In this document: in pieces, positions 44,811 through 64,000 of the stretch
How the letters are laid out: the number at the start of each line of letters is the position of its first letter
Numbering within the stretch: the first letter of the stretch is position 1
Source: Armatimonadota bacterium
GTDB lineage: Bacteria > Armatimonadota > DTGP01 > JAKQQT01
Direction of reading: 5' to 3'
Assembly (NCBI GenBank): GCA_036504095.1
Contig: DASXVS010000025.1
Span: 1 to 64,000, forward strand
DNA: 64,000 nt
Notes under the pieces: generated by a model
What the model saw: only the letters and a program-made list of their open reading frames with translations
Told to the model about the DNA's origin: nothing
The model's database searches: none
Translations under genes and position numbers: made by a program

Positions 44811-44950
44811 TACAGAAACGTTTCCTTCCGTTGGGTGCTGCTGACGGTACATCAGCGGAAGCACACCATATTGTACTCATTTTCATTGGACTCGGCAATG
44901 AGCCGCATCCCTCAAATTCGCCATAGACTCGCAGAACATCGGCCGGGGCC

Positions 44951-45976: not shown

Positions 45977-46036
45977 TCAATCTGCCTCTCACTCAGCACA
46001 ACACTGCTCGGCAACGCTCGTCGCGACCCGCGCCGA

Positions 46037-46945
46037 TCAGCCCATCGGCGCGCCGCCGGGGCGCGGTCCACCGGGCATCGGCGGTCCACCGGGCATGGGC
46101 GGGCCACCTGGCATCGGCGGGCCGCCTGGCCTCATGCCGCCAGGCATCGGGCCGCCGGGTTGTCCGGACGCACCCGGGGTGGTTGCGCCGCCGGCCGCGC
46201 CGCCGCCCGGAACCGAAGCCTTCTGCATCTTGTCGCCGTTCAACGGGTACACATAGACCGTCATGTTCATTTCCGCAACGACGGTGTCGCCGTTGCCGGT
46301 CAGGAACGCCGGAACGGGGCTGCCTCCGATGGTATTCGCGTCCTGCGTCTGCGACTGGGCGGACGTAAGGATCACCTTGTCGATCGAGGCCAGGCGCCGG
46401 CATTCCCTGGTGGACCTGAGCATCCGCATGATACCCGGAAATGTGCCTCGAACCTTCACGCCTTCGATAACCAGTTTTTCGAGCGTGGGATCGATGGTGT
46501 TGGGGTTCGTTCCATCCGGCGGCCCTTTCACCTCGGGCATGGTGATCACCGTGTTGCCGGTGCTCCTGATCCATCGCGTGATTACGGAGGCGCAGACGGT
46601 GTTCTTCTCAAGGGTGAGATCCTCCCAGGCCGTCCAGATATCCGCGCCGAGGTCAAGCGGCTGATTCCGAGGACCAATGCGGAAGTAGTGAGCCTGGGCC
46701 ACCCTCCACTGGTTCTGGGTAATCGCGGCCTTCTGCTCGGCGGTCGCCAGCTGTTTCTCCGCGGCGGCCTTCTTCGAAGGATCCGCCTGGGCTTCCAGGT
46801 CCTCGACAGCGGCACGGTTGGCGGTGTTGGTCTTCACAAGCGGCGCGATCCAAAGGTACGCCGCCGCTCCTCCGACGATGGCCGCCAGGAGGATCGCCAG
46901 GATTCCGATGTGAACAGGCTTCAGTTTGGGGGGGGTTAGATTCAT
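46037..46945 (-). CDS. PilO-like pilus assembly protein
   Basis: 302 aa. Membrane helix about 13-36 (IGILAILLAAIVGGAAAYLW), coiled coil about 40-90, then an alpha-beta periplasmic domain (LEKLVIEGVKVRGTFPGIMRMLRSTREC) of PilO type. The C-terminal ~55 residues are Gly/Pro/Met-rich with PMPGGPP repeats. It would pair with PilN in the inner-membrane alignment complex. The start is 2 bp downstream of the pilN stop. The low sequence similarity typical of PilO makes the call rest on order, topology and the GTF-type core. Confidence 0.8.
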   Translation of the reverse strand: MNLTPPKLKPVHIGILAILLAAIVGGAAAYLWIAPLVKTNTANRAAVEDLEAQADPSKKAAAEKQLATAEQKAAITQNQWRVAQAHYFRIGPRNQPLDLGADIWTAWEDLTLEKNTVCASVITRWIRSTGNTVITMPEVKGPPDGTNPNTIDPTLEKLVIEGVKVRGTFPGIMRMLRSTRECRRLASIDKVILTSAQSQTQDANTIGGSPVPAFLTGNGDTVVAEMNMTVYVYPLNGDKMQKASVPGGGAAGGATTPGASGQPGGPMPGGMRPGGPPMPGGPPMPGGPPMPGGPRPGGAPMG

Positions 46946-46947
46946 CT

Positions 46948-47796
46948 CTATTGTACTTGCGGCTGGGCGGCGCCCGGCGGAGTGGCGATATCTATCTTGT
47001 TCAGTAGGTCGATGGCGATCTCAACGTCATACATCGCCGGCTGCGGCGGACCGGACGGCGCGGCGGCGGCGGGCATGCCTGACGCTCCGCCAAGCGCATA
47101 ATTGTATTGACCGGAGGCTCCCGTCGCGGGACTGGCAATGCTCATGGGAGAGTTCGGGTTCATGCCACCTGGCATGGGGGGGCCGCCCGCCATCGGTGGC
47201 CCGCCGGGCATGGGTGGTCCGCCGGACAGGGACTGCGCGCCGACAGACGAGCCGGAACCCGACGTGTCTGTACTCGCCGCGCCGTACGAGACGGCCATAA
47301 CGGAATCGATGATCGGGCAGCGCCGCAGATTCCGCGTCGTCATGTTGACCAAAGTGGCCTGCGCCATTCTCTTCGATTCCGGCAGGCGAACATGCATGGT
47401 GACGGAAACCGAGCCCGGCGTGGGCGTGATGTCTGAGACAACGGCGCCGGGGTAGGTATAATTGGCGATGGAATTGAACACCTTCGCCCAACCGGCGTTC
47501 TTTCCCGTGACGGGGTTCACGGCCGTGTCGATGAACGTGGTCTTTTCCAGAACACCCTTTACCGCCGCCGTGGCGTCATCCGCCTTCTTGTTGATTCCGG
47601 CGATCTCCGTCACCGCGGCTTGGGCAACTCCCTGTCGGGCGGCCAGGTCTTTGGCGACGTTATTCTGGAACATGCCGAACGCGACCAATCCGGCCGCTTC
47701 GGCCAGAATGAGTAACGCGGCAAGCAACCACGCCACTCTCACCTTCTTGCGGAGGTAATAGGCGGCCGGTATCAGGTTAATGGTCGGGATTGACAT
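46948..47796 (-). CDS. PilN-like pilus assembly protein
   Basis: 282 aa. It begins MSIPTINLIP, the PilN signature by which the cytoplasmic tail binds PilM. One membrane helix (about 21-42) and a coiled coil follow, then the periplasmic domain with WAKVFNSIAN and VSVTMHVRLPE. A disordered stretch with GGPPMPGG repeats sits at about 190-215 inside the C-terminal third. The start directly abuts the pilM stop (TAAATG). Confidence 0.88.
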   Translation of the reverse strand: MSIPTINLIPAAYYLRKKVRVAWLLAALLILAEAAGLVAFGMFQNNVAKDLAARQGVAQAAVTEIAGINKKADDATAAVKGVLEKTTFIDTAVNPVTGKNAGWAKVFNSIANYTYPGAVVSDITPTPGSVSVTMHVRLPESKRMAQATLVNMTTRNLRRCPIIDSVMAVSYGAASTDTSGSGSSVGAQSLSGGPPMPGGPPMAGGPPMPGGMNPNSPMSIASPATGASGQYNYALGGASGMPAAAAPSGPPQPAMYDVEIAIDLLNKIDIATPPGAAQPQVQ

Positions 47797-49284
47797 TTAT
47801 GCGGCCTTTTTCTTTCCAACGGGGGCCGTGGCGATGGCGTTGCGCGCGCTGAGACCGATGGCCACCGGTATGAGCGCGGCTATCTGCTGAAGGTAGTCCG
47901 ATGGAACCGCCGGGGAGCCCAGCGATGTCGCCGCGGGCAATCCAGCGATCTGAACGGGAAGGCCCAATTCCTTCTCCAGGAAGCCATTGAGACCCGGGAG
48001 ATTCGTCACGCCGCCGAACAGGACCACGCGGTCCACCCGGGCGTCATTCGCTCGCGTGGTATAGTACTCTACGGAACGCTTGATCTCGGTGGCCATTTCG
48101 GCGACCACCGGCATAAACGCGTCGGAAATCTCCCGGCGATGCCTTTCAGCCTCAGTGAGGACCTCAGGTACGGGCTCCGGGGCCGGCGCTGGGGCAGCCT
48201 CGACAACAGGCTCCACGGGGCCGCTGTTGGCCGGGCCGACATCGGGCAGTTCAAAGGTCGGGCCGTCGGCGGGCGCTGGCGAGAAGTCAACACCGAACGC
48301 GGGCGGAATCTCGGGGTCACCGAAGGCGGGCGCCGTCCCGAACGTTGGTTCCGGGATCGTCTGCGGAGTGTCGCCGAATATCGGGATATCCGGGGCGGAA
48401 GGGGGAACGATACCGGCTGCGCTAGGAGTGAGCGGGGCAGAGAGGTTCAGGCCCTGGCCGGCAAAATCGCCGAACTCGAACTGCTCCTCGGCCTGCGGGG
48501 CTTCCCCACCCCAACGCTCGCTGGCGTCATCGGGAACGAAGCCGTGCTGCTTCTTCAGGTGCTCCGCCTGGGTGATGTCCACATTGAGCGCGTGGGAGAC
48601 CGCTTCCGTCATCGCGTTGCCCGCAACGGGGATCGTACGCGGGAAGGCAAGCGTTCCGGACTCGTAAATGCCGACGTCAATCTTGGAGGCGCCGATATTT
48701 ACGAGGGCAACGGTCTGGCCGGGATAGGCATCGTCCACGTCAAACAGCGCGCGCGCGCCTGCGAGGCACTCTACATCGATCGCCACCGGTGTGAGGCCGG
48801 CCATAAGTATCGTCTGCAGCATGCCCGCGACAACGGCGTTTTGGGCGACGGCCAGCAGAACCGCCATGTTGGGCGAGTTCGGGTCGTCGGTGGGGCGCGC
48901 CATCGGCTCAAAATCTTTAACAACCTCGTCCGGAGCGAACGGGATGTGCCGGTCGATTTCCCATTTCATCGTCTCCGCGAGTTCCTTGTCGGTCATCTTG
49001 GGGACTTCAATCACGCGCACAACAACCGACGATTGCCCGGCGACCGAGGCCACCACGGATTTCGTCTTGATGCGGCTTTCGGCCAGCAATTGCTTGATCG
49101 CTGAAGCGAGGACGGCGGGATCAACGATCTCGTCGTTCACGATGCACCCGGGAGGGGTGGGCAACACTCCGACTCCGGTAATCGAGAGGGCGCCTTTGCT
49201 TGGGCGCATTTCAACGACCTTGATGAAGGCCGCCCCGATATCCAGACCGAGAACCGGGGTTCCGCCCTTGTTGGTAACCGCCAT
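47797..49284 (-). CDS. pilM: PilM, actin-like pilus assembly ATPase
   Basis: 495 aa from ATG 49284 (AGAGGA 4-5 bp upstream). PilM features: VLGLDIGAAFIKVVEM (phosphate 1), VVRVIEVPKMTDKEL, MKWEIDRHIPF, FDVDDAYPGQTVALVNIGASKIDVGIYESG, and VDRVVLFGGVTNLPGLNGFLEKELGLPVQIA. Typical PilM is about 350 aa; the excess is an acidic Pro/Ala/Phe-rich insertion (about 240-375) inside subdomain 2. It would recruit PilN from the cytoplasm. Confidence 0.95.
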   Translation of the reverse strand: MAVTNKGGTPVLGLDIGAAFIKVVEMRPSKGALSITGVGVLPTPPGCIVNDEIVDPAVLASAIKQLLAESRIKTKSVVASVAGQSSVVVRVIEVPKMTDKELAETMKWEIDRHIPFAPDEVVKDFEPMARPTDDPNSPNMAVLLAVAQNAVVAGMLQTILMAGLTPVAIDVECLAGARALFDVDDAYPGQTVALVNIGASKIDVGIYESGTLAFPRTIPVAGNAMTEAVSHALNVDITQAEHLKKQHGFVPDDASERWGGEAPQAEEQFEFGDFAGQGLNLSAPLTPSAAGIVPPSAPDIPIFGDTPQTIPEPTFGTAPAFGDPEIPPAFGVDFSPAPADGPTFELPDVGPANSGPVEPVVEAAPAPAPEPVPEVLTEAERHRREISDAFMPVVAEMATEIKRSVEYYTTRANDARVDRVVLFGGVTNLPGLNGFLEKELGLPVQIAGLPAATSLGSPAVPSDYLQQIAALIPVAIGLSARNAIATAPVGKKKAA

Positions 49285-49399
49285 GCGTTCCTCTTGTGGT
49301 GGGATCCGGACCATCGCCTCAGCGACGGCCAAAGGTGGTGCGGGAAGCGCTGCGCCGTGTAGGGGCGCACGCGACCTCATGCTAACACTAAGACGGGCA

Positions 49400-49590
49400 A
49401 AGGGTCAATACGGTGTCAGGTTTCGGGTGACCGGTTGCTGGTGACGGGTGTCCGGTATCGGGCACGGTGGCCCGGTCTACCCCAACACACGCCTCCCGTC
49501 ACCTGTCACCCGTCAGGCTGCGGGTGACGGGTGGGTCAGGCACGAAAGCCCGACCTTCCCGACACCCGCTGCCTTCCACCTGTCACCCAT
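49400..49590. repeat. Cluster of iterated GTGTCGGGTGACGG hairpin repeats
   Basis: The pilM upstream gap is filled with GGTGTCAGG, GGTGACGGGTG, CCCGTCACCTGTCACCCGTC and similar iterated words that pair across the gap. It also contains two CGGGC hairpins (about 49453-49480 and 49527-49556, each with GCCCG and CTACC or CTTCC). No promoter for pilM is discernible inside it. The right-hand gene ends at 49596 beside it. Confidence 0.75.
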
Positions 49591-49595
49591 TCACC

Positions 49596-52500
49596 CTACT
49601 TGTTCCGGAAATCCGGACTCAGAGTTGTATAGTAGACGTCGCTTGCGGAGCCCGCGTACATCAGACCTCCGAACGAGCTCTTGGGGTCATCGAATATCTG
49701 GTAGTAATACGGATCGACCGGTTTAGACTGGATGAGCGACGGCACACTGGTTGTATTCCCCGCGCTGCGGCTGGGCCTGGTGCTTTCCCAGAACAGCCAC
49801 ATGCTGTTATTGCCACGGACGTAATACAGCGGATCACCCGGCGGCACGTCGCTGAACGGGTCCTTGAACATCCAGGGCACGCTGTCATTGCCTTGCGCCT
49901 GGGTTGGAACGGCCCGCGGCTGGGTCCACGTCTCCATCGGAAGCCTGAAATCGCCGCCCGCGGTCCCGTACCTTACAGGAGCCGGGATGCCTTCCGGTAT
50001 CCACCCGATCGTGAAGCGCCCCACTTTGCTTCCGCCCATATAGACGTCCACAACATCTCCATCGTTCGCTCCGGTAAAGAAGAGACGTCCATTTTTCCGG
50101 TCGACCGTCACATAGAGATCGACCTGCGCTCCCGAAGTGTCCGTGAAGCTGATGACGGGCAGCTTGCCTTTGCTGTCCAATGGTATAGGCGCGACGCCGG
50201 TGTCGACGCCCAGCCGATACGTCTGGTAGAACAGCGAGCTCTGGCGCGTGGCGCCTTCGGGCGCCGCGCTGCGGCGCCACAAGACCCACATCCGGTCGCG
50301 ACGGATCACCAGCGGGTTCGTCGCCGTAATGGGCGCATTTGTCTCCGTCGGATCCGTCACCACCTCGTGCGTTTCGTCGATCCATATCTGCGGCATCGTG
50401 TCGGAGATGTCGTCGTCGGCGGTCACGCGCAGCGCATAGGGGTTCATCGCCACGAAGACGAAGTCCTGCACCAGGACGTTATTGGCATCGGAATGCGGCA
50501 CGGTCATCGGCGCAGGGTGCCCCACCGGGTCCGAGGTTGTGAAGCGGACGGTGCCGCCGCCGGCGTCGATAAACGCCGTCACATTCGGCAGGTTACCGCC
50601 CGCGGCCATATGGCCCGTGACTTCCACGATGCCACCCTGGTTGTTCCCGGGATTGCGCGACGTGAAGGTCGCAAACAACCGGTAGTCGTTGTCATTGCTC
50701 GGCTGGCCTTGAGGCGCCACGGGCTTCTGGAACCAGTAGACGACCGTTCCGAGCGGCCCACGGCCGAGCCAGTCCGCCCAGCGCGAGCGGAAGATGGGGC
50801 GCGGTTCGCCGGCCACGCGGATCAGCGGGTCCAGCGGCTTGTTGTCGATGCTCCTGGGGTCGGCGCCCTTTCGCGCGAATCCCATCGTGCCCCAACCGCC
50901 GACGGTGGCGGCCGAGCCATCCTCCGCGGATTTCATCGCCACGTAGCGCACCACGTATATGTCCGGGTTGCGCGCCGAGCGGTTGTAGCCCGTGAAGGCG
51001 ACTTCCAGGACGCCCTGCCGGTATTTCGCGTTGGACGAATCCAGGAGCACCTTGGGCATTTGATGGTAGTACACGCTGGGGTGTAGCGCGCTGCCGACGC
51101 CGGTCGGCAGCGCCAACTGCGTCGTTTTCCAGGTAGCGTCCTTGCTGATGGCGCCGGTATTGTCGGTCGCGATCGTGCTGACGTAGAGTTTCCAGGCGCC
51201 CGGGGCGCCGCCGAACCACGCGACACCGAGCCCGATCACGCGCTCGCCAGTCAGGTAGGCGGATCCCACCTCGGCGCCATTCTTCGTGAGGGTGCCGCCG
51301 GCGGTGATCAGGAAAGGCCGCGGCCCGTATTTCGGGGTGAACGGATCGAGCGAGCGCAGGCCATTCACCACGCCGACAGCCTGAATGGAGCCACCGGAAA
51401 TGCCCACGGTGGCGTTGGAACGATCCACCGCGATGGGCGCGTAGAAGATGGCGCTCCGCTGGTCGGCGCCGATGCCCGTCGTTCCGACCCAGAAGACGAC
51501 GCGCGGGAAATTCGTGCCGTGATACTCAGTCAGAGGCGCGGGCGACGTGTAATTGAGATCGGACGCCGATATCTCGCCCGGTTTCACGCCCAGCGCATCC
51601 GCCACGGTTGCGTTGTCAGGAAGCCACGGCTCCGCGCTCGGCGCACCGAACCATCGGGCGGGCGCGCCGAAATTCGGGAACAGGAAGAGCCCGCCGGTGT
51701 TGCCGCCCTGGTACTGCCAGCCCCACGGGTTCTGCGCCAGCACGCCGGTGAGGAACTGATTCACGTTGGCGCCGTAGTTGATGGGCGGATTGGTCGGATC
51801 CTGCCACGTCATCGCGCTGGCGAAGATATGGTACTTAGAGGCCGCTTCCGCCTTCGGAACGAACGGCGCAATCGGCTGGAAGCCGCTGCTCCCGACTTCC
51901 CCGACGCGGTTACTGGACCAGAAGGTGACAAGGTCGCCCGTCGAAGGATCGCGGAAGGCAGACGGTGTCGTATCCTGGGCCAGCGACTGCCACACTTTTC
52001 CGAGGCTGGCCAAGTCGTTCGGCGTGGCGAACGTTGCGGACATGGCGACGCCGGTGTCGGCGTTCGGCAGGAACGGGGCGAGGCGCGAGGTCTTGTCGGT
52101 AAGCCGGGCTTCGCCCACGTTGACGGTGACCACCGAGTCCGCGCTCACTCCGGACTCGCCGGGCGTTAGGACGCCGTCGCCGGAAGTGAACTTGCCCGCG
52201 GCAAACTGGATGTCCTCGAAGACAACAAACCGGCCGTTAGGCGTGGAATAGCGTCCCGGCGGCGTTCCCGGCGGGATGGCAACCGTGAGATACGGCAGCC
52301 CCGGAGGCGACGCCACGCCGGTCGCGTTGTGCTGGCGGCGGACATAGCCCGCGGCCCAGAGGTTGGGAGCGTCCGGCGCCGTCGAGGGAGACGCTGCAAA
52401 GACGTCCTTCACCTGGATGATACGGCCGTTTCCGTCGTCGCCGATGGCGCCCGGGGTCGGCTTGCGAACCGGCGTCCACAGCCGCGGATCGGACGGACCG

Positions 52501-55500
52501 CCCGCGCCGGATTTCGGCAGCGGATCGATTGTGGAGGCCAGGTTAAACCGCTTCAACTTGCCGGACCCAGGCCAGTTGCTGTGCTCGTCGGCGCCCAGGT
52601 ACGGGTTCTGGTCGATCTCTGGCGCTTCCAGATGGGCGGCCAGCGGATCGTACTTGTCGAGGCGCAGGCTCCAGAGGTTCACATTTCCCGTGTTGTAGAC
52701 CGCAAACGGCGCATAGTAGGAGCGCTCGCCGAACAGCAATCTGTCTTCGTCGCCCGGACTTGCGCCGGCGGTAACGGCCTGGTTGTCGTAGTAGTACTGG
52801 AACGGGATATAGCCGGCAGGGATGCTGGATTCCGGGCTGCGCGGCACGTCGATGGTGGTCGTCGCGACCTTCAACGATTCGTTCGGACGGACCTGCGCGC
52901 CGGACACGAACATACGATAGGCTTCGCCGGCGTCGGTGTCGGGCGAGCCGTTGCCATTCACGTCCGCGTATACCTTGGTCAGGTACTGCTGTTCCCGGGC
53001 AACGAAAGCGTTGGATGTGGGCAGCAGCGGGTTGTTGATACCGCCGGCGTAATACTGCTGCGCATTGGTGTGGCTCGGATCGGTGAACGCGCCATACAAC
53101 CCGGCCCCCAGGGACCGGCCGGCGGGGTTCCACGCCAGTAGAGCCGCCGCGGCCGCCGAGTTGTTCGTCGGATTGATGGTGTAGTAACCGGGGCCAACGC
53201 CCGAAACCTTGCTCTGATCGCCGGGATCGATGTTCGGCGGCGAGTAGTTGGCGGGCTGATATTTCGGGACGGCGACGCGCATCGAGAAGTTGGCGAACCC
53301 GTTCGGGAAAAGCGGGGCGTCATCGAGGGTGGCGTCGGACTCCGTGTCGCCGGCCATGGTCGGCTCCCGCAGCCAGGTTGTCTTGCCCGCGTCAATGTCC
53401 GGGTAGTCGAGGCTCTTGTTCTCCTCGCCCGTGACGAACGGGGGGGTCTCGGCGCCAATGTACACATGCGCGTTCGGATCCTGGGCGCTTGCTATCTGCG
53501 GCCCCCAATAGGACGGCAGGTTCGGATCGGTAGCCTGCGCATACAGCGGCTCCGGCGGCAACGTGCCCAGCGATGACGGAAGGCCGTTCGGGAGATTGCC
53601 TGTATTCACTAGCAGCGGCTTGTAAGCCGCCTTCGGGCCGCCGACCCAGCGAAGCCTGTTGCCCTGGACGCGGACGCGCAGGTAGATGTTGTCGCCGGAG
53701 CCGGCGAGCTTGGAGTTCGCCAGCGCGCGCAACTGCGGCAGGTGGCTCCGGTCAACGACCGTCACCAGGTTCTGCGGGATCGTATTCGTCCCGTGGTCTC
53801 CGATCACGGACGTCTCGATCGGGATGCGCTCGTTGCCGTTGCGGTCGACTTCCTTCTCCTGGTCCGTTGTAGGCGTCACGGGCGTCGTGGCGGTCGCCAG
53901 CAACGGCGCCGGTACGGTGGTGGCGTCACCGGGCGTGAAATGCCCCATCATATTGATCGGGTTGCCCAGGCGGAATTTGGTGAGCGAAGCAATCTTCACG
54001 CGTTGTGAAGCCTGTCTGCGCCGGACTTCCTTGCCATTGACCACGTCGACGAGATCGGGCGCCTGATAGAACGCCGTGACGGTGTAGCCCGATCCGCGCC
54101 AGCCCGGGGCCAGCAATTGCCCGTGCAGCGGGTTGACGTATTCGGATTGCGGCGCCATCGGATATCGCAGGCCGATCGGAACAGATTCGCCAAACGGGTT
54201 CAGGTAGAATATCTGCCGGGAGAATCCGGTGGTCCCCGAACTCTCCAGCGAGCCCTTCAGCGTCGCCGTGGTGCCCGGCCCCGTCAACTGGAAGGTTAGT
54301 GTGCCCCAGTCGGTTTTAGCCTTGGCGGCCTCGGTGTCGAGGCCCGGGCCCCATGCGACCACGCCTACCGGATCGCCCCATTCCAGGAGGGCGCCGTTGG
54401 CGGCCTGGAAGTTGGCGTTGGCCACCCCCACAGGCTGCGGCGTGGTGGGTCCCAATTTGGCGGCATTGCCCGGAGGTCCACCGGTGGGCGCGGCCGTGCC
54501 CTGAAACGCCTGAGGCGTGGTGAAGTTGTAGCCGAACCCGGCCTGGAAGATGTCAACGTAGAACTCGAGGTCGCCCGCCACGGACGCGCCGCCGCTGGGG
54601 CGGACGCGGTCGGGCGCCGGGCCGCGCTGGCCCCTGTTGCGGTAGCCAGTGCGTCCGCCGCCGCCGACGTTCCCGAAGTCAAAATCAGGCAGTTGGTTCG
54701 CCCACGCATATAGAAGCCCGTTGTCGCCGCCCGCATACACATAACCGGCGTGGATGACCGGGGTGGAGACGACCGGCTGCTGGACCGGCTGAAGGCTCGT
54801 GACCGGCGGATCGACGCTCGTGTCGGTGGTCGGTACGTCCGAATCGACTTCCCAGCCCCAAGACAATTCACCGCCCGTTGTCGCCGGCGTCATGAGTTTG
54901 TTGTGGACGTCGGTCACCGGCTGGGTGCGCGCGGATGTGGTATCGAGGGCGAGCACACCGGTTGTGACACCGATAAAGACGTAACTGCGCCCGGCCGCCG
55001 CCGGATAGCTTGACGTGAGCATAAGGGGCGAACTGACCACGGGCGACGAGTAAAGCCCCGCCGTTCCCGCGACATTGCCGGGAAGCGAATACGGAAGACG
55101 CCAGTACAGGCGGTCCACGCTGGCTTTGGCATCGTCGGCCGGCCCGGCCCGCAGGGGGTAGACCCGTCCGTTGTTGTCGATCGCGAAAAGGATGCTCTGA
55201 TCCTTTAGCGGGCTTCCCTCTCCAGACCCGGCGCTGACCGCTTCGTTGACCTCGCTGAATATCTGTTGGCCGGTGGCGTACGCGGGTGTGACGTTGAACG
55301 CGGACGGGCGGATGGTGTAGTCGGTGGCGGGTGTTTTGTCGAAATCCGTGTTGACATCGCGCGTCACGTCATTCCAGCGGTCAAAGGTCCACTTGACGGT
55401 TCCGTTCAAAGGATTGACGCAGAAGATGGTGCCGCCGCTGAGGCCGGCTTCAGCGCCGATCGTGGCGTCGTTCTGGTTCGTGGGCGAGGTCACAAAGATC

Positions 55501-57788
55501 GCGTCTATCTGGGGAATGACGTGGCCGGACGACGGTTCAATGTAGGGGCTTCCGGCGATTGGCCGGGCGACCACCGTCGCCAGCAGCGGCTTGGACTGCG
55601 CGGGGACGAGGCGGCCGCTCTGGGAGTTCACCTTCGTGTCCGGCAGAATCACCGTGCCGGATGTGGTAACCTTCTCAAAAGGGTAAGCCACGAAGCCGAA
55701 ATGGTCCAGCCGGTATCGCGTGCCGTTGGTGGACGTTGTGCCGATGGTTCCGCCCTGGACGGAATCGGTGACGTCCCAGCCCGCGCTTGTGCCGTCGCGG
55801 ATCGGCGAACCGTCCGCCGCGTCTAGCGCGTACACCTTGCCGTCATCGCAGCCGAAGAACAGAGCGAGGCGGCCGGTCGCATCAGCCGCACCGGGCCGCA
55901 GCTGGCTCTTGGCGGTCGGCAGGAACCCAAGTGTGGGCGACGTGTTGATCGGGTTGCCCGCGACGCTGTCGTAAGTGATGTAAGTGGGATTCTTCGCGTC
56001 GCCCGTGCGCAGAATGCCCTGCCCCAGCGGCGTCGTCTTGAACTCCCATTCCTCCAAGCCGGTCGCGGCGTCGATGCAGAACATGCGGCCCATCGCGGAG
56101 CCTACGAACACCACGACGCGTGTCTGCCCCGGGTGGCTGAACGCCGTGGAGGGAAGGGCGATTTCGGCGGAAACCGGGCTCGAGATAATGGCGCCGGAAA
56201 CGATTGGAGCATAGGGAGCGAGCAGCGGGCCGTCCGATTTCGCATTAACGGTATCGCCGCTCAGCGTCGGGATATATTCGCCGGGCGGTGTAGTAATGAC
56301 CGCCACCTGGGAGCGTGTGCTGCCGTTAAGCGTCGAGTAGACCGGAACGCGGGCGGCGGCGTGGAACGCCCATACCAAGCGGCCCATATACGTGCTGGTG
56401 AGCGAGCCGCCTCCTGTGGCGGGAACGCGGCGGGCGCCTCGCGGATCGGCGTCGAAAGCATACAGGTATCCGTCATCGGACCCAACGATGTACAACTGCT
56501 CGGTCGCGAGGCCCGCTTCCTTGACGATCTTCAGCGGGTCGCGACGGTCGTCCCGGACGTGCTGGAGGTTCGTGTCGTAGTTGTAATACGCGGAGATGTA
56601 GGAAACGGGGACCTGGAGCCGAACGAAGGCGCCCGTGGAATTGATGGGCCCCATGCCGTTCGCCTGCCGGAATCTGTTGTCCAGCGGGCCGGAGAACACG
56701 TCGCCCTTCGTCTTGCCGGCGTTTTCAACCAGCCCGAACGCCTTGCCGGTGATGCTGAGGTTGTACAGGCGGTCCGTGACGCGCTCCGGGATATCCGCGC
56801 GGTTCGGGCCAACGGGGCCGGCGCCGCTGTCGATGCCGGGGCCGGTACCTTTGATATCGGTCGTATTGGCGACGGCGGGCATCATCCACTGGGTGGCCAC
56901 GGCCTCGCGGCCGGGCTTCTCAATCGTCGCATCCTCCGTGCTGTACGGCGAGGTGCTGCTGCGTGATTCCTCAGGAGAGTAGTCGAACGCGCGCATCGCG
57001 GTATCCGACGCGTTGATGAAGAAGCGGTGCTGCGCGAGCGACGGAGACCCGGCAAAGGTGCCCTGTGAAGAGGTGCTGGCATTCCCGATCTCGTCCTGCG
57101 GGACCAGGTAATACGGAAGGTTTCGGACGCCATACCACCAGAACGGCTTGAAGTTGCGGGAGAAATTGGTGAACTCGGCGAGTTCGGTCGTGCCCGCGAA
57201 GCCTTCAAGTGAGAACACGCAACCGGTGTTCTGCATGTTCAAATAGTTGTACGGGTCGGAATTGGCATCGTAGACCTCCGTTCCGGAGGCGTCCGTGGAA
57301 AAGTCTCCCACACGCGTGCCGGGCAGGTTGTTGCGCACATCGCGGCGGACCATTGTGGTGGATCCGAACATGACGGTCATCGCCAATTCGGGGGTGATAT
57401 CGTCACCGCCCACCATGACGCCGGCCACTGTGGCGGACGAACGGATCTGGCCCAGGGTGTAGCCAAGGGGGTAGGCGTTGCCGGGGTCGTCGAAACCCGC
57501 ACCCTCAACGTCCAGCGGGTAGAACCAGGTCAGGTCCGGATTCGGGAGCCAGCCGGCGGTGCCCCTGCTGTCCGTGTATTTGACCTTGAAGGCGGGCATC
57601 TGGTTGGATTTCAGGCCCTGGCCCGTCGGGTCGTCCGGATCAAAGCCGAGACTGGTGCGCAATTCGTTTTGCCGGTATGTGCGCCATTGGCCCTTGACCA
57701 GATTCTGGGTTTCCGCGGCGAAGGCCCCACCGGCAATGGCCAGCGCGAGCCCCGCAACCGTGACCGACGATCTTCGCAGCAACTTCAT
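49596..57788 (-). CDS. Giant secreted PQQ-type beta-propeller protein
   Basis: 2730 aa from ATG 57788 (GGGGGATGGG upstream), with a signal peptide (MKLLRRSSVTVAGLALAIAGG then AFAAE). Residues about 470-1010 hold about seven PQQ-like blades: VGSDDGYLYAFDADP, VVFVGSAMGRMFCIDAATG, FFGCDDGKVYALDAADG, GTIFCVNPLNGTVKWTF, LFAIDNNGRVYPL, YVFIGVTTGVLALD, YVYAGGDNGLLYAWA. A Ca2+-loop-like DVNGNGSPDTDAGE lies near 1606. The long C-terminal half is beta-rich with no family I recognise and ends YTTLSPDFRNK. It lies between the 1526-aa protein and pilM. By analogy with PilY1, which also pairs a propeller with Ca2+ loops, it could be a pilus-tip or surface adhesin; this is inference. Confidence 0.85.
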   Translation of the reverse strand: MKLLRRSSVTVAGLALAIAGGAFAAETQNLVKGQWRTYRQNELRTSLGFDPDDPTGQGLKSNQMPAFKVKYTDSRGTAGWLPNPDLTWFYPLDVEGAGFDDPGNAYPLGYTLGQIRSSATVAGVMVGGDDITPELAMTVMFGSTTMVRRDVRNNLPGTRVGDFSTDASGTEVYDANSDPYNYLNMQNTGCVFSLEGFAGTTELAEFTNFSRNFKPFWWYGVRNLPYYLVPQDEIGNASTSSQGTFAGSPSLAQHRFFINASDTAMRAFDYSPEESRSSTSPYSTEDATIEKPGREAVATQWMMPAVANTTDIKGTGPGIDSGAGPVGPNRADIPERVTDRLYNLSITGKAFGLVENAGKTKGDVFSGPLDNRFRQANGMGPINSTGAFVRLQVPVSYISAYYNYDTNLQHVRDDRRDPLKIVKEAGLATEQLYIVGSDDGYLYAFDADPRGARRVPATGGGSLTSTYMGRLVWAFHAAARVPVYSTLNGSTRSQVAVITTPPGEYIPTLSGDTVNAKSDGPLLAPYAPIVSGAIISSPVSAEIALPSTAFSHPGQTRVVVFVGSAMGRMFCIDAATGLEEWEFKTTPLGQGILRTGDAKNPTYITYDSVAGNPINTSPTLGFLPTAKSQLRPGAADATGRLALFFGCDDGKVYALDAADGSPIRDGTSAGWDVTDSVQGGTIGTTSTNGTRYRLDHFGFVAYPFEKVTTSGTVILPDTKVNSQSGRLVPAQSKPLLATVVARPIAGSPYIEPSSGHVIPQIDAIFVTSPTNQNDATIGAEAGLSGGTIFCVNPLNGTVKWTFDRWNDVTRDVNTDFDKTPATDYTIRPSAFNVTPAYATGQQIFSEVNEAVSAGSGEGSPLKDQSILFAIDNNGRVYPLRAGPADDAKASVDRLYWRLPYSLPGNVAGTAGLYSSPVVSSPLMLTSSYPAAAGRSYVFIGVTTGVLALDTTSARTQPVTDVHNKLMTPATTGGELSWGWEVDSDVPTTDTSVDPPVTSLQPVQQPVVSTPVIHAGYVYAGGDNGLLYAWANQLPDFDFGNVGGGGRTGYRNRGQRGPAPDRVRPSGGASVAGDLEFYVDIFQAGFGYNFTTPQAFQGTAAPTGGPPGNAAKLGPTTPQPVGVANANFQAANGALLEWGDPVGVVAWGPGLDTEAAKAKTDWGTLTFQLTGPGTTATLKGSLESSGTTGFSRQIFYLNPFGESVPIGLRYPMAPQSEYVNPLHGQLLAPGWRGSGYTVTAFYQAPDLVDVVNGKEVRRRQASQRVKIASLTKFRLGNPINMMGHFTPGDATTVPAPLLATATTPVTPTTDQEKEVDRNGNERIPIETSVIGDHGTNTIPQNLVTVVDRSHLPQLRALANSKLAGSGDNIYLRVRVQGNRLRWVGGPKAAYKPLLVNTGNLPNGLPSSLGTLPPEPLYAQATDPNLPSYWGPQIASAQDPNAHVYIGAETPPFVTGEENKSLDYPDIDAGKTTWLREPTMAGDTESDATLDDAPLFPNGFANFSMRVAVPKYQPANYSPPNIDPGDQSKVSGVGPGYYTINPTNNSAAAAALLAWNPAGRSLGAGLYGAFTDPSHTNAQQYYAGGINNPLLPTSNAFVAREQQYLTKVYADVNGNGSPDTDAGEAYRMFVSGAQVRPNESLKVATTTIDVPRSPESSIPAGYIPFQYYYDNQAVTAGASPGDEDRLLFGERSYYAPFAVYNTGNVNLWSLRLDKYDPLAAHLEAPEIDQNPYLGADEHSNWPGSGKLKRFNLASTIDPLPKSGAGGPSDPRLWTPVRKPTPGAIGDDGNGRIIQVKDVFAASPSTAPDAPNLWAAGYVRRQHNATGVASPPGLPYLTVAIPPGTPPGRYSTPNGRFVVFEDIQFAAGKFTSGDGVLTPGESGVSADSVVTVNVGEARLTDKTSRLAPFLPNADTGVAMSATFATPNDLASLGKVWQSLAQDTTPSAFRDPSTGDLVTFWSSNRVGEVGSSGFQPIAPFVPKAEAASKYHIFASAMTWQDPTNPPINYGANVNQFLTGVLAQNPWGWQYQGGNTGGLFLFPNFGAPARWFGAPSAEPWLPDNATVADALGVKPGEISASDLNYTSPAPLTEYHGTNFPRVVFWVGTTGIGADQRSAIFYAPIAVDRSNATVGISGGSIQAVGVVNGLRSLDPFTPKYGPRPFLITAGGTLTKNGAEVGSAYLTGERVIGLGVAWFGGAPGAWKLYVSTIATDNTGAISKDATWKTTQLALPTGVGSALHPSVYYHQMPKVLLDSSNAKYRQGVLEVAFTGYNRSARNPDIYVVRYVAMKSAEDGSAATVGGWGTMGFARKGADPRSIDNKPLDPLIRVAGEPRPIFRSRWADWLGRGPLGTVVYWFQKPVAPQGQPSNDNDYRLFATFTSRNPGNNQGGIVEVTGHMAAGGNLPNVTAFIDAGGGTVRFTTSDPVGHPAPMTVPHSDANNVLVQDFVFVAMNPYALRVTADDDISDTMPQIWIDETHEVVTDPTETNAPITATNPLVIRRDRMWVLWRRSAAPEGATRQSSLFYQTYRLGVDTGVAPIPLDSKGKLPVISFTDTSGAQVDLYVTVDRKNGRLFFTGANDGDVVDVYMGGSKVGRFTIGWIPEGIPAPVRYGTAGGDFRLPMETWTQPRAVPTQAQGNDSVPWMFKDPFSDVPPGDPLYYVRGNNSMWLFWESTRPSRSAGNTTSVPSLIQSKPVDPYYYQIFDDPKSSFGGLMYAGSASDVYYTTLSPDFRNK

Positions 57789-57977
57789 TTCCCATCCCCC
57801 GGCGCGCGCCGGTAATATCGTGTGTAACACAAGCAGTACGCGCCCAATTGATTGGACCGAAGCCCATACCGGGCGGTTCCAGGCCGTGGGGCCGGGTTCA
57901 ATACCAAAACAGCGTTTCAGCCCGTGCCGGACGGGCACGGAATTGCCAGCGCCACTCTCGGCTCGCGATGGCTCCGT
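57789..57977. other. Gap between the two giant genes
   Basis: No gene is seen. A hairpin CCGTGCC-GGACG-GGCACGG lies at about 57922-57941 without a T-run on the minus strand. The region otherwise holds only the ribosome site of the 2730-aa protein. Confidence 0.4.
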
Positions 57978-60900
57978 CTAGAACAGACGGTCCGCGTAGA
58001 CGGGACGGTTCAAAGCGCCCGTTCCCTCGATGCTGGGCGCCGTCTGAGACAGGATGCTCTGTAGGTCGCCGGCCAGCGCGGCCTTAGGTGAGTATTCGAA
58101 CACGCGGCCGGTTTTCTGATTCACCATCAGCACATTGCCATTTTGCAGACGCTTGGCCATGGACGTTCCGGTGGTGTGCCCCCCGCTACCCATCAGGCCG
58201 TTCGTGATAGTGCCCAACGGTATATTGGCGACGATCGGCCCATTGGGGAACGTCGTGAGGATGGTCGCCAGGCCCGCCGGATCAGCGGGGCGCTTCGTAA
58301 GGTCGAAGATGTTGTTCCCGTCGGTCATTGTCACGCGCCAGTCAAAGGCGCCGTCGCCGGTTACGTAGCGGTTGAAATACACGGGTCGCGCCAGCGGGAA
58401 GCCCTTGGTCGGGTCGCTGTCGTAGTGCGCCTTGCTGAGGAAGTAGACGACCTTCCCAGCCGCGCTCTTCGCCCCGCCGCCATAGGTTTCCGATTTGCCA
58501 CCCAACAAGACCAGGCTGCCGCCGGCCGTGGCCGGAAGTCCCGTTACGGCGCCGGACAGGGCCGAGTCATCGGATTGCACTTCCGCGCTGTTCACGGCAT
58601 AGTTGATGACGCTGGCGATGGTGCGGCCATAATCCAGGCTGCCGTTGTTGGGATCATTTGGCTTATAGTACGCTTCGCGTTGAGCCTGGAAGAACTGATA
58701 GCCCTTCCCCGCCGGCCCCCTGCCCGCCCATACAAGCACATTGTTCGCCTGATCCGCGTCGTCCGGCGAGAACCGCGAAACGATTTCCAGGATGCGGTTG
58801 TTGCCGAAGTCCGTTATCAGGGTGTGCTGGGCCCGCGCGCCCACATTATCGTTCGCATCCCACTCGTAGGTTTCCCATCGCTGGGCGGACGTGGGGCTGC
58901 TGAGCGCACGGCTCTCATTGGCGCCAAGGAGGCCATACGGATCCGCAAACTCGGTGCACTGCCACACGATGTTTCCGGTGCGGTCCACCTCAACCACCCG
59001 GTTGTTGCCTGTGTCGCAGACAAGCGTGTTGGTGGAGTTGATCCGCACGGCCATCGTCGGCTGGTTGAGGGCCTTCGATACCGGGGGATCCAGCCGACCT
59101 TCAGCCCAGGGCGGGTGCTGCGCCCCGACGCCGGGCGATCCGAACTCGCGGTTCTGCACCGTGCTGTCGAGGCTCCAGATGATCTCGCTGCCTGTGGGGG
59201 AAAACTCGACGAGTCCTCCGACCGGCGCGTACGTGGATGCCACCTCGATAATGCGCGTGGAGTCGGTGATGAGTGTGCGCGGCGAATAGAACGAATAGAG
59301 GCCAACCGGTGCGTTCTCAATCAGGGTCCCGTTCGCGACGATCGGTGTTGAGCGGAGCGGCGCGCGCGGATCTACCGATGGATTCGGATACGTCGAGATG
59401 GAGAAACCGGCCGAAGCCGCGAGGCTCGGGTACGTGGCGCGGAGCATTTTGCGGGTGGTCAGCCGCCGCACGACGTCCAGGCTCGTGGGCAGAGGAACCG
59501 TCCAGATGTCTCCGCTGTCCGAACCGACGTAGATGCTGCCGCCGGCAACCGTCACGCCCGTTCGCACGCCCCCGCCGGCGCCCACCGGGACAGCCGCGGA
59601 AAACGCGAGCAGGTTTGTCGGATCCGAACCTTCGCCCCGTTCCGACTTGTAGTACACGGTGGGCGTTTCGCTCTGGACCGCCACGGCCTTCCCCGTGGTC
59701 ACGTCGAGCGCCTGATAATTGACCTGCATATCGCCCGGCCGGCTGAAATCGATAGCGCCGCTGCCCGACCCGCTGCTGAGCGTGCGGAAGGTGATCAAGC
59801 CGCGAAGCACGTTTCCGATGTTGGTGTTGTCCACATCGAAGAGCCCGTAGCCCACCTGCTGGAGGTCGCCGGTGCAGAGGTTTCGCTGAAGGATGCTGAC
59901 GGAGCCCTTCTGCGACGGGTCAATTGGCGAGTTCAGCAACAAACCGAACTTGGTGTTCTGAACATAGAAGCCATCCACGCCACCGGTAGAAGTGACCGGA
60001 TCCCGCCAATGCCCGTTCGCAACGTAGAGGATGCCGCGATCGACTGCCGGCGTGCCCAGAACCACAGGCTGCGGCGTTGGCGGAGCTGAGGCGCAGCCTC
60101 CGCTCACGTACGATGCGGAACCGACAGAGTAGACGAAGGTGAGCTGCGGCGAGTTCAACGGCGGCTGATAGTTCGGGTTGCCGGTGACCGTGAATCCCAG
60201 GTTCTGCTGGCGCATTTCCACGCCCATGACGATAGGCGCCTGGTTAGCGCCTTGCCCGACATCGGAGGCCACCCAGTACATACCGCCGGCGGACGACACA
60301 ACGGGGGTCGTCAGGATCTCCATGAACTTATTGATGTCGCCGACCACGTACGACCACGCGTCATAAGTCCACCGGGGATTGTAGCCCGCGAACGGCGCCA
60401 CGGGAGCCTGGGGCGCAAAATCGTAGTCAGCGCGAAGGTCGTTTTCGAGCCCCACAGGCACCGGGGCATCGATGTACATGCGGTTGCGGTTGTTGGCCGT
60501 ATCCACCGCCATTGTGCCGATGACCGGTACGCCCGAGCTCCCAACCCACACAGTCACATTCACAGCGGGTATGGAATTGTCCCGCGAAAAGCGCGTCCAG
60601 AATTTGCGGTTATTGGAGTCGCCGTTGTAAAGCAGCTTCTCGCCGCGCACGCCGATTGGGAAAGCGGTGACGCGCGACGCCTGCGCGGGGCCGTAGCCGG
60701 AGCTCGCTTTGATGGACAGCGAGGGAACGAGGAGCATAATGTCCGTGGCGCCGCTGTAGCCCTTGTCCGGTATCGCCGCGACGGTGGGTGTGGCGCTTGG
60801 GATGCCGAGGCGCGTGACGCGGACGCCTGCCGCTGTGCCCGCCGTGATATCAGGGTATTGCCAGCGCGTCTGCAGTGTGACCGGATCGATCTCCGCCAGC

Positions 60901-62558
60901 GCGCCGACGCCCAGGTCGGCGCTGGGGCTTGCACGCACGCCCACCACGAACAGGCGGCCGTTATACCAAACGGGCGCGGGGATCCGGTAGGTGGCCTTCT
61001 CGCCAGGAGGGTAATCTGTAGCCGACGAGGGCAGGTTCGCACCAAGGAGCGGCGGGAACGTTCCGAAGCCGTTAACCCTAACAGACTGAATCGTCGTAGT
61101 TGGCTTCAGTCGCCCGTTGGCGGTCCGGGGCAGTGCGTCCGCCGCGAACACGCTTCCGTTCGCCAGCATGCCATAGAGACGCGGGCGGTTGCCGAAGTCC
61201 CCGATTACGAGCGATGAGCACGGCCCTGGGAGTGGCACCTCCCAGATGCGGTCGCTGCTGGGCGTGAGCGGATTTTGAAGCCCATCGTCAGGGTTGCCGT
61301 CGCCGTCCAGATCGCGGTCCGGGTCCATGTCATACGCGCGGAGGAAGCCATCCGATGTGGCGGCGTAGCAGATGCCGTTCCACACCACGGGATCGCTCAC
61401 AAAGGGCACGGTTGCGACCTTGTACTTGCCGGATGCCGAGTCGAGTTTGAAGTTTTCGGGGTACTGCCATTTGCGACCGAGCGGCGTGTTCAGATCCTGC
61501 CGGCTGCCGGACGCGTGGCGCGCGCCGCCGCCGGGCTGCGGTGATTGGAACCGGTACGATATCAGGTTGATGAGAAACTTCAGTTCGGGCGCCGGGACGC
61601 GCGACGCGTCCGATCCGCTGGCGGGCCCTGTGTTGGCGCCGCGCCAGCCCGCGCCCGTCGTCACGTCATCGACGCCCGGAACCGCCCGGAACCCCTGGGT
61701 CAGTTCACGCCCGAAAGCGCGGCTTGTGACCACGATGGCGCCCTGTCCGTACGTGGTCGCAGCGATAACGGGGCGATCGGCTATCGCGGAAACCACGGTC
61801 CACGGCAGGGGGGCGCCCGGGCTGATCGTCTGGGTTAAGGCGTTGTTCAACGAGATGGAAGCGCCGCCGCGGTTAAGGCCCAACTGGGCAATTTCACGGG
61901 CCGACAATGGGTTGGGAGTGCTGAGCAGGGCGTTGAGCGGATCGCCGGCGGGCCGACCGCGTCCGCCTGCCATGAACCCGACGCCGATCAGGTCTTCGTC
62001 CAGTGTTTCGGGGTTCATCGAACCGCCCGTCGCGTTGTCATACCAAAGCGTCAGTCCGGCGTCCACCGCACGCCGTAGTTTCTCGCGGTCGTCCACGGTC
62101 AGGGTATCTGTGGTGGAGTCATTGTACGGGAGCGGTATGTAAAGCACGTCGTAATTGGCCAATTGCTCCGCGGTGACCTCGTGAAGGTAGACCTCCCAGT
62201 ACGCGCCCATATTCTTGTTCAGGCGCGGTGGATTACTGGGGTTGATCGTCAGCCCGTAGCGCGCGGCCATGATGCCGTCCATGAACGGTGCAGCATAGGG
62301 GTTCACGATCTCCCACGAGTAGGGCCGTATGTCCGGCCTGGCGTTCAGCGCGTGGAATACGTAACTGAACGGGTGCGCCCCGTCCGCGGCGGTGGACGTT
62401 ATCGCCCTGCCATCCGCCCACGCGTAGCGATTCGCCAGCAACACCCCGCAGCGTATCGTCTGCACCTTGGTGTTGTAGGTATGCGCCGCGGCGAACAACG
62501 GCGCGGCGCTGAGAGCCAGCGCCAGTCCGATGCCCAGATATCTTGTTCCGTGCTTCAT
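57978..62558 (-). CDS. Large secreted protein, GATase-like domain plus PQQ/NHL-type propeller
   Basis: 1526 aa with a signal peptide (MKHGTRYLGIGLALALSAAP). Residues about 30-290 look like a class I GATase/DUF4159-type alpha-beta domain: YDVLYIPLPYND, TVDDREKLRRAVDAGLTLWYDNATGG, YGQGAIVVTSRAFGREL. Then PQQ-like segments (GICYAATSDGFLRAYDMD, LFVVGVRA, ILYVANGHW, GSIYVGSDSGDIWTV). Later come NHL-like pieces (NTLVCDTGNNRVVEVDRTGNIVWQC; TLITDFGNNRILEIV). A DLDGDGNPDDG Ca2+-loop-like motif lies inside the propeller near 412. It shares layout with the 2730-aa protein next to it. No ribosome site is evident. Confidence 0.8.
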   Translation of the reverse strand: MKHGTRYLGIGLALALSAAPLFAAAHTYNTKVQTIRCGVLLANRYAWADGRAITSTAADGAHPFSYVFHALNARPDIRPYSWEIVNPYAAPFMDGIMAARYGLTINPSNPPRLNKNMGAYWEVYLHEVTAEQLANYDVLYIPLPYNDSTTDTLTVDDREKLRRAVDAGLTLWYDNATGGSMNPETLDEDLIGVGFMAGGRGRPAGDPLNALLSTPNPLSAREIAQLGLNRGGASISLNNALTQTISPGAPLPWTVVSAIADRPVIAATTYGQGAIVVTSRAFGRELTQGFRAVPGVDDVTTGAGWRGANTGPASGSDASRVPAPELKFLINLISYRFQSPQPGGGARHASGSRQDLNTPLGRKWQYPENFKLDSASGKYKVATVPFVSDPVVWNGICYAATSDGFLRAYDMDPDRDLDGDGNPDDGLQNPLTPSSDRIWEVPLPGPCSSLVIGDFGNRPRLYGMLANGSVFAADALPRTANGRLKPTTTIQSVRVNGFGTFPPLLGANLPSSATDYPPGEKATYRIPAPVWYNGRLFVVGVRASPSADLGVGALAEIDPVTLQTRWQYPDITAGTAAGVRVTRLGIPSATPTVAAIPDKGYSGATDIMLLVPSLSIKASSGYGPAQASRVTAFPIGVRGEKLLYNGDSNNRKFWTRFSRDNSIPAVNVTVWVGSSGVPVIGTMAVDTANNRNRMYIDAPVPVGLENDLRADYDFAPQAPVAPFAGYNPRWTYDAWSYVVGDINKFMEILTTPVVSSAGGMYWVASDVGQGANQAPIVMGVEMRQQNLGFTVTGNPNYQPPLNSPQLTFVYSVGSASYVSGGCASAPPTPQPVVLGTPAVDRGILYVANGHWRDPVTSTGGVDGFYVQNTKFGLLLNSPIDPSQKGSVSILQRNLCTGDLQQVGYGLFDVDNTNIGNVLRGLITFRTLSSGSGSGAIDFSRPGDMQVNYQALDVTTGKAVAVQSETPTVYYKSERGEGSDPTNLLAFSAAVPVGAGGGVRTGVTVAGGSIYVGSDSGDIWTVPLPTSLDVVRRLTTRKMLRATYPSLAASAGFSISTYPNPSVDPRAPLRSTPIVANGTLIENAPVGLYSFYSPRTLITDSTRIIEVASTYAPVGGLVEFSPTGSEIIWSLDSTVQNREFGSPGVGAQHPPWAEGRLDPPVSKALNQPTMAVRINSTNTLVCDTGNNRVVEVDRTGNIVWQCTEFADPYGLLGANESRALSSPTSAQRWETYEWDANDNVGARAQHTLITDFGNNRILEIVSRFSPDDADQANNVLVWAGRGPAGKGYQFFQAQREAYYKPNDPNNGSLDYGRTIASVINYAVNSAEVQSDDSALSGAVTGLPATAGGSLVLLGGKSETYGGGAKSAAGKVVYFLSKAHYDSDPTKGFPLARPVYFNRYVTGDGAFDWRVTMTDGNNIFDLTKRPADPAGLATILTTFPNGPIVANIPLGTITNGLMGSGGHTTGTSMAKRLQNGNVLMVNQKTGRVFEYSPKAALAGDLQSILSQTAPSIEGTGALNRPVYADRLF

Positions 62559-62564
62559 TATTTG

Positions 62565-62640
62565 TAGCCAGTAGTCAGTAGGCAGTAGTCAGTAGACCGG
62601 GAGCGGCGGGCAGGTAACGGCGGCTTGAACCCATGCTCAT
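62565..62640. repeat. AGTAGTC-iterated repeat
   Basis: AGCCAGTAGTCAGTAGGCAGTAGTCAGTAG-type words (in shorter runs) fill the gap upstream of the 1526-aa gene. The same kind of 7-nt iteration in other words appears at 10738, 21601, 42105 and 49400. Confidence 0.6.
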
Positions 62641-62651
62641 CATCCATGGAG

Positions 62652-64000
62652 CTAGGAGGCCTCACCGCTGAACACCAGATCCGGGCTCACCGGGAGCGCC
62701 GGCGTGGGAGGAAGCGGACGATTGAACCTGTCAAACCGCACCGGAACCCGCAGGTTGTTGTCGTACATATAGACCAAACCTTCGCCGCCGTGCACTCCGT
62801 TCGAGCCGTCCGGACGAACCGTCGGGGTCCAGCCCCAGTGCCGCGACCAAGCGGTCTGGAAATCCTTGTCCGCGGGCTGGTTCTCGGCGATCGCGCCGCA
62901 GATCACCACCCGGATGTCCGCCGGTTCGCCGTAGAACGGGTAGGGAGATTTGTCCGGGTTGTCCGCCAGGCGCCAACCGGCGTCGATAGGGCTGGTGAAT
63001 CGGCGCGACGACGCGATGGCGTCGGCTCGGACGTCTGCCGGGTTTCCGTTCATCCATTCGCCCGGTATCACGAAGAACGAGCCCTCCTGGGCGTAGATCA
63101 CCGCTTCGATGCGTATATCGAGGGGCGAGATGGTCACGCGGCTGAGCCACAACGGCTGGTTGTAGTTCTGCGTGAACTCCGTGCCGGTCGACGCTCCGAC
63201 GGGCGGGGGGCCGAAGTACGGCCTGTACGTGAATGCGTACTGGTCCGGCATGGCGTGCCCCGTGATTTCCCAGGATGTCTTGCGGTTGTTCGGCGCCTGG
63301 GTCAGCGGGATCACCCGGTGCTGCCAGATATTCTCGGCGGGCGCTTCGGGGTACTGGCCGGGGGCAACCGTCATCGGCACGCCGGGCGCGATGAGGCTCC
63401 GCGATGCCGAAGCGTTATCGCCATACGCATACATATCGAGTTCCGCGGCGCCGCCGGGATAGCCCTCCGCCGTCTGGAGGAGCATCAGTTCCTGGCCGGC
63501 CCCAAGGGCGTCCTTACCGTAGGTGGTGGGGTTGACGGCGCTGTATCCACCGGTGACAAAGCGTTCGTCCGGCGCCGAAAGCTCGGAATACGGATTGCCC
63601 AGCGCGAAATTCCAGGGGCCCGAATCCGGCTGCCTCATGAAGTACGCCGTACTGTTCACGCAGACGTAGTCCTTGGCGATGACGGTGATGCTGCCCACCT
63701 GGAGACCGGGCCCGTATCCGTTCACGTTCGCCACAGAGGCGGCATCGCCTTTCAAGAGGTTTCCCTCTATGTAGGCGGTCCCCAGCGTGACGAACGTCAG
63801 ATGCTGGCCGACGACGCGCCCGCTGCTGGGAGCGACCCAGTCCGCGGGCAGCTTGCCCTGCAGCCGGAGGTTGCCTTCGAAGTACAACACGCCATTCTGG
63901 AATGTCTTGTACGCGCCGGTCGCATCCCTGAACTGGTCGCCTGCAACGTTATCGTACGTGTCCGTGTCAACCAGCGCGCCGGTGTTGTCGAACACCTGGC
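62652..64000 (-). CDS. PilX-like pilus-associated protein, C-terminal part
   Basis: The frame is open through the right edge, so the N terminus is missing; at least 449 codons are present. The visible part is beta-rich, with NGVLYFEGNLRLQGKLPADW, GQHLTFVTLGTAYIEGNLLKGD and ISPLDIRIEAVIYAQEGSFFVIPG. These resemble the C-terminal region of PilX/DUF4900-type minor-pilin proteins, which carry repeated strand-and-turn units. It is upstream of and co-oriented with the giant propeller genes and pilMNO. A prepilin N terminus would be expected just beyond the window but cannot be checked here. Confidence 0.7.
   Translation of the reverse strand, partial: QVFDNTGALVDTDTYDNVAGDQFRDATGAYKTFQNGVLYFEGNLRLQGKLPADWVAPSSGRVVGQHLTFVTLGTAYIEGNLLKGDAASVANVNGYGPGLQVGSITVIAKDYVCVNSTAYFMRQPDSGPWNFALGNPYSELSAPDERFVTGGYSAVNPTTYGKDALGAGQELMLLQTAEGYPGGAAELDMYAYGDNASASRSLIAPGVPMTVAPGQYPEAPAENIWQHRVIPLTQAPNNRKTSWEITGHAMPDQYAFTYRPYFGPPPVGASTGTEFTQNYNQPLWLSRVTISPLDIRIEAVIYAQEGSFFVIPGEWMNGNPADVRADAIASSRRFTSPIDAGWRLADNPDKSPYPFYGEPADIRVVICGAIAENQPADKDFQTAWSRHWGWTPTVRPDGSNGVHGGEGLVYMYDNNLRVPVRFDRFNRPLPPTPALPVSPDLVFSGEAS

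Follow-up and report, generated by a model that had tools for sequence, protein, structure and literature searches.

Giant secreted propeller proteins encoded after pilX are a candidate type IVa pilus tip in Armatimonadota

Two giant secreted proteins of Armatimonadota, here called A (Y1a) and B (Y1b), may together form a type IVa pilus tip that sits on a PilX-like minor pilin and works in the manner of PilY1 while belonging to another lineage. We assign this reading a probability of about 0.6 and, from gene order and architecture, infer a tip-adhesin role for the pair. Among the tip components of the well-studied type IVa pili, PilY1 is the defining one. No paper on the Armatimonadota pilus tip turned up in a literature search.

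The window, that is, the whole stretch of DNA analyzed here, comprises bases 1 to 64,000 of contig 25 of a 4.68-Mb genome (Table 1); start codons of its open reading frames (ORFs) were assigned mechanically. In the direction of transcription, the order on the minus strand is pilT-pilC-pilD, two prepilin genes, pilV-like, pilW-like, and pilX-like genes, the genes for A and B, and pilM-N-O-P-Q; everything from pilT to the 5' part of the pilX-like gene lies on the contig past the window edge. A first-pass annotation of the window had described ORFs of 1,526 and 2,730 residues, a PilX-like protein preceding them, and pilM downstream on the same strand. All of this held: both ORFs are as claimed, the PilX-like gene is the upstream neighbor of A, and PilM matches PilM_2 (E = 3.9e-50) and scores above the TIGR01175 cutoff. 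The 311 bp before pilM contain a promoter-like site, so pilM-Q may be transcribed separately in this genome, although such sites are expected by chance. Together with the 189 bp separating A from B, this gap is a point against the tip reading. Between B and pilM there are also repeats resembling GGTGACAGGTGACGGG, some of them inverted (window positions 49420 to 49570).

TABLE 1 Features of the pil locus, in window coordinates
Feature	Position	Strand	Basis or remark
PilX-like minor pilin	62652..64000	-	C-terminal 448 residues; gene runs on to ~C25:65456, 934-935 aa
Propeller protein A (Y1a), 1,526 aa, secreted	57978..62558	-	ORF; 93 bp from pilX, 189 bp from protein B
DUF4159 domain of A, residues ~30-340	61539..62471	-	PF13709 in relatives; boundaries from alignment
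BamB/PQQ-type beta-propeller of A with insertions, residues ~361-1060	59379..61478	-	AlphaFold2, Foldseek, PDB profile matches to BamB
Calcium motif 1 of A, DLDGDGNPD, residues 416-424, first blade C-D loop	61287..61313	-	Conservation and model
NHL-type propeller region of A, residues ~1085-1320	58599..59306	-	NHL in relatives; Foldseek
Propeller protein B (Y1b), 2,730 aa, secreted	49596..57788	-	ORF from ATG at 57788
PQQ-type blades, N-terminal half of B, residues 555-669	55782..56126	-	PQQ_2, E = 1.4e-6
Calcium-loop-like DVNGNGSPD of B, residues 1609-1617	52938..52964	-	Poorly conserved
Conserved C-terminal part of B, residues ~1930-2730	49599..52001	-	Ends W.FWTSTR.G..DLY..T..P.F
Promoter-like sequence before pilM (TTGACC, 18 nt, TAGCAT with TG)	49379..49408	-	3 sites found versus 2.5 expected by chance
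pilM	47797..49284	-	PilM_2, TIGR01175
pilN-like	46948..47796	-	Position and topology; family search without match
pilO-like	46037..46945	-	Position and topology; family search without match
pilP-like	44951..45976	-	Position only
Separate STN-domain protein, Gly-rich tail, matching N-terminal part of PilQ	44055..44864	-	PF07660, E = 5.7e-14; TIGR02515, E = 7.8e-9
pilQ secretin	42214..43860	-	PF00263, E = 6.5e-38; TIGR02515, E = 7.6e-45

Gene order in relatives ties the two giants to pilus genes across the phylum. Profiles were run over ~80 loci; 40 loci had been fetched solely for holding A (A-selected loci). A was present in 200 of 251 phylum genomes (157 of the 179 good ones), usually as a single copy, and members of the PilX family were detected in 233 genomes (174 of the good ones). 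All 36 testable A-selected loci have pilX upstream of A within 700 bp: in 34 of them it lies at ≤500 bp (median gap, 21 bp), in L072 at 667 bp, and in L073 at 649 bp. B comes directly after A in 29/37 A-selected loci (median gap, 18 bp), and pilM after B in 15/26. The pilW-pilX-A-B block stays intact even where pilM is elsewhere, as in families f4, f8, and others and in loci L072 to L077 and L080. Because the linkage is phylum-wide, we reject accidental adjacency of A and B to pil genes. A was not detected in 51 of the 251 genomes, part of which may be explained by profile limits, and families f19 and f28 have pilX directly followed by pilM; some pili of the phylum thus do without the pair, a further point against the tip reading. 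At two family f8 loci, pilM is preceded by another secreted protein, of 862 to 876 residues (L036, 1870 to 4455; L037, 15393 to 18020), and the A/B block is located elsewhere.

Outside the phylum, the search covered named genomes, scanned once using a shallow pattern, plus plasmid records. Three named relatives of A, all labeled Chthonomonas and 27 to 37% identical in the best segment, were returned by the five-sequence alignment pattern; from these, the phylum was taken to be Armatimonadota. Neither Y1a (L047) nor PilX matched any plasmid record, and a PilM scan of genome contigs gave no match. An alignment of 13 Y1a sequences contained no conserved stretch.

The first-pass annotation had named a prepilin leader in the upstream gene as a condition for its proposal. 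Read from the contig beyond the window, the PilX-like protein does begin with a prepilin-type leader, KERG^QIIVIAVGVMFLL, that lacks Glu5 (the contig reads ...KERG^QIIVIAVGVMFLLALIAGIFL, then ...AQYLAEAGIRYADQQL). The leader is conserved in relatives: RGQ[ST]L[IV][IV]A, cut at RG^Q, is kept in ~57 homologues with few exceptions at Gly or Gln, and these homologues also have ...LAEAGIRYAD..L..S.EGADWRP in common. The prepilin-type features of the family are Gly at -1 and a long hydrophobic helix, with Glu5 absent. The profile search with a PilX family model that had also been proposed came back negative, PilX_N (PF14341) matching none of five family members scanned, so the name PilX rests on leader, topology, and position. 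The family profile likewise had no match in the PDB. PilX proteins without Glu5 have been published for Myxococcus and others (PMC7541494).

On inspection, A and B each start with a Sec-type signal sequence. Strongly hydrophobic stretches are absent from both past residue 60, so that there is no other membrane anchor. In A, the signal peptide is followed in order by a DUF4159 domain, a BamB/PQQ-type propeller, and an NHL-type propeller. PF13709 was significant (best E = 9.3e-8) in 9/19 A homologues but fell under the threshold in the A of this window, and NHL was found by sequence in 3/19. AlphaFold2 models were made of parts of A and B as single proteins and are of moderate confidence; that of A residues 341 to 1526 has a pLDDT of 70.4 and a pTM of 0.76. 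Its first propeller resembles BamB (Foldseek TM-score, 0.63 to 0.65 by target length), which is also among the PDB profile matches of the A family, and its second resembles the NHL domain of TRIM71 (TM-score, ~0.5 by target length). The top-ranked Foldseek matches of A were to DDB1, with TM-scores of only ~0.15, which we take as a sign of several propellers in a row and nothing further. The fold check thus favors a propeller in A; the PQQ-like blades read in A by the first-pass annotation are found in relatives and at the fold level, but not by sequence in the window protein.

The calcium-loop motif that had been noticed near residue 412 of A proved to be strongly conserved. DLDGDGNPD is kept strictly in 44/63 A homologues and in relaxed form in 50/63, and D416, D420, G421, and D424 are nearly invariant alignment columns. 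Chance occurrence was rejected, the motif appearing in 0.3% of shuffled sequences. In the model, it lies between strands 405 to 410 and 436 to 442, which are strands three and four of blade one, and Ca2+ binding is predicted for this conserved loop.

Protein B is up to 3,811 residues long in relatives; here, A and B amount to ~4,250 residues together. The PQQ-like blades noted earlier in B are supported by sequence. A Ca2+-loop-like motif, placed near residue 1606 by the first-pass annotation, is indeed present but poorly kept, with 28/59 homologues having a relaxed, scattered form and 5/59 a strict one; we therefore rejected it as weak for a defining feature of B. The C-terminal half is the better conserved, and its AlphaFold2 model (residues 1541 to 2730; pLDDT, 68.5) gave weak Foldseek matches to neuraminidase-like and GH43-like propellers (best E = 1e-3). 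This is weakly favorable to a propeller fold, and the C-terminal part of B is probably a second propeller of unclear type.

The machinery encoded at the locus is, by its sequence matches, that of a type IVa pilus, with PilT, PilM, PilC, PilD, and PilQ all present. PilT matches TIGR01420 (E = 1.3e-144, above the cutoff), pointing to a retractable type IVa pilus; PilC and PilQ have strong family matches, yet below the equivalog cutoffs, and PilD was identified by sequence reading alone. The pilV-like protein (626 residues) matched TIGR02523 at E = 9.7e-8, under the cutoff; the pilW-like and PilX-like proteins have 591 and ~934 residues.

Gene order, leader, secretion signals, propellers, and calcium motif parallel those of minor-pilin/PilY1 clusters, and the simplest reading is that A caps the pilus. 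In such a complex, the pilV-, pilW-, and pilX-like minor pilins would prime pilus assembly, and the PilX-like protein, lacking Glu5, would be the topmost pilin and carry A. A, with or without B, would then form the distal, surface-exposed part of the tip; B would be placed with or on A, adding more propeller modules and probably some of Ig-like type. The tip complex would exit through PilQ and be retracted by PilT, and the propellers of A and B may bind surfaces or glycans. In the minor-pilin/PilY1 clusters, PilX is the uppermost pilin and carries PilY1, and a PilX lacking Glu5 with PilY1 at the tip has been described for Myxococcus (PMC7541494, PMC13190605). Within Armatimonadota, Fimbriimonas is fimbriated and nonmotile, and its pili are thought to serve attachment (PMC4072686).

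Three other explanations deserve consideration. A and B could be highly divergent true PilY1 orthologues whose sequence similarity has been lost. Like the PilY1/PilC tip adhesin of proteobacterial type IVa pili (PF05567, 3HX6), A is a secreted propeller protein with a signal peptide, whose gene comes immediately after pilX among minor-pilin genes, with a variable N-terminal domain ahead of the propeller and a fit to PilY1 calcium motif 1, Dx(D/N)xDGxxD; the PilY1 sequences published so far also diverge from one another, mostly sharing <40% identity, and differ in their N-terminal domains (PMC13190605). However, PF05567 matched nothing in 121 phylum genomes while matching 2/2 proteobacterial records used as a positive control, and hhalign against two PilY1 proteins gave probabilities of ≤3.5%, with a shallow PilY1 profile. 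Among the 50 best PDB fold matches listed, A is closest to BamB/PQQ and NHL propellers; these matches comprise BamB, PQQ, NHL, and multipropeller proteins and no PilY1 structure. The calcium loops also differ in position: A has its loop between strands C and D, but in the two PilY1 proteins the motif directly precedes the strand IYVGD or LYFGD, a position that we interpret as the loop joining strands one and two. Moreover, A has DUF4159 where PilY1 has a vWFA or DUF4114 domain, and there are usually two giant proteins here versus one. Given the absence of a PF05567 match, of profile similarity, and of PilY1 from the 50 listed fold matches, we do not claim membership in the PilY1 family, and we regard orthology as quite unlikely. 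What survives of the "PilY1-type" label in the first-pass annotation is the pil linkage, the secreted propellers, the PilX-like leader, and the conserved calcium motif; family membership does not, in view of PF05567, hhalign, and loop position.

The two remaining alternatives take A and B away from the tip. They might be cargo of a type II-like function of the pilus machine, released as exoproteins rather than held at the tip, as could be argued from large secreted proteins encoded beside a secretin and pseudopilin-like genes, from the likening of PilY1 to a type II secretion system substrate (PMC7541494), and from the weak neuraminidase/GH43-like matches of B, which could represent exoprotein domains. 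We think this unlikely, since A adjoins pilX, usually in single copy, across most of the phylum and the ATPase gene of the cluster encodes PilT, a retraction ATPase. Very unlikely, in our estimate, is a role in envelope assembly, with A and B as scaffolds of the BamB kind serving PilQ or the outer membrane and encoded in the pil operon by chance. BamB is the best full-domain fold match of the first propeller of A, and pilM-Q follow in many families; against this, A and B are far larger than BamB, show no lipobox in their signal sequences, and remain beside pilX and pilW at loci where pilM lies apart. BamB and PQQ-type propellers share the fold of the first propeller of A and the PQQ_2 blades of B, but differ from the pair in calcium loop and pil context. 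The BamB model TIGR03300 gave 14.3 bits for B against a cutoff of 285 and no match for A.

Other propellers occupy the slot after pilX in family f21, where, in the two genomes concerned, A was not found and the secreted proteins after pilX are unrelated to A and B. One genome has two such proteins of 497 and 442 residues (L125, 13325 to 16159, minus strand), and the other has a single confirmed protein of 560 residues (L127, 4505 to 6184). The first protein of L125 and that of L127 match PD40 (E = 5.9e-18 and 2.6e-11, respectively) and carry several calcium-loop motifs; no homology of A or B to them was found when tested. These propellers hint, independently of A and B, at a tip role for the post-pilX slot. 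Tentatively, and with some doubt, we suggest that secreted calcium-loop propellers of unrelated origin came to occupy this slot independently of one another (PilY1 in proteobacteria, A and B in most Armatimonadota, PD40 proteins in f21), the ~4,250 residues of A plus B then being among the largest known pilus tips.

Known systems offer partial precedents for a tip built from A and B. The FimU-PilV-PilW-PilX-PilY1 clusters of Pseudomonas and Myxococcus (PMC7541494, PMC13190605) share the order V-W-X-propeller and a PilX without Glu5, but the PilV-, PilW-, and PilX-like proteins here are far larger, pilTCD and often pilMNOPQ adjoin the cluster, and PilX lacks a PF14341 match. ComZ of Thermus thermophilus (PMC6561018), likewise a large modified pilin, has been proposed to sit at the pilus tip; the PilX-like family profile had no PDB match that would connect it with ComZ. 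PilX2 of Saccharibacteria (PMC12206443) also places a propeller at a presumed pilus tip outside the Proteobacteria, although there an RCC1-repeat propeller is fused to the pilin, whereas here the propellers are separate giant proteins. Phylum-wide, pilX-linked propellers with a PilY1-type calcium motif and no detectable PilY1 kinship would point to a rule broader than the PilY1 family, testable in the form that PilX holds a secreted calcium-binding propeller. A and B become annotated attachment candidates for Armatimonadota.

Several further features of the pilus genes were observed. The PilN-, PilO-, and PilP-like proteins bear PPMPGG-type repeats (window positions 44951 to 47796), and the corresponding proteins of three relatives (L120, L122, and L130) bear other Gly-rich tails. 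PilQ is apparently divided between two genes (42214 to 44864), one for a secretin and one for a separate STN-domain protein bearing a Gly-rich tail; a similar gene pair follows pilM in one of these relatives (L120, genome G057). A second PilM gene, with a full PilM_2 match, and a 527-residue secretin-like protein form a separate cluster (G000:C2:42000-47200; L112); this genome thus probably encodes a second pilus-type machine. The same genome (G000) has 54 prepilin-type N_methyl matches, far above the needs of one pilus; 65 prepilin-type matches have been reported for F. ginsengisoli (PMC4072686).
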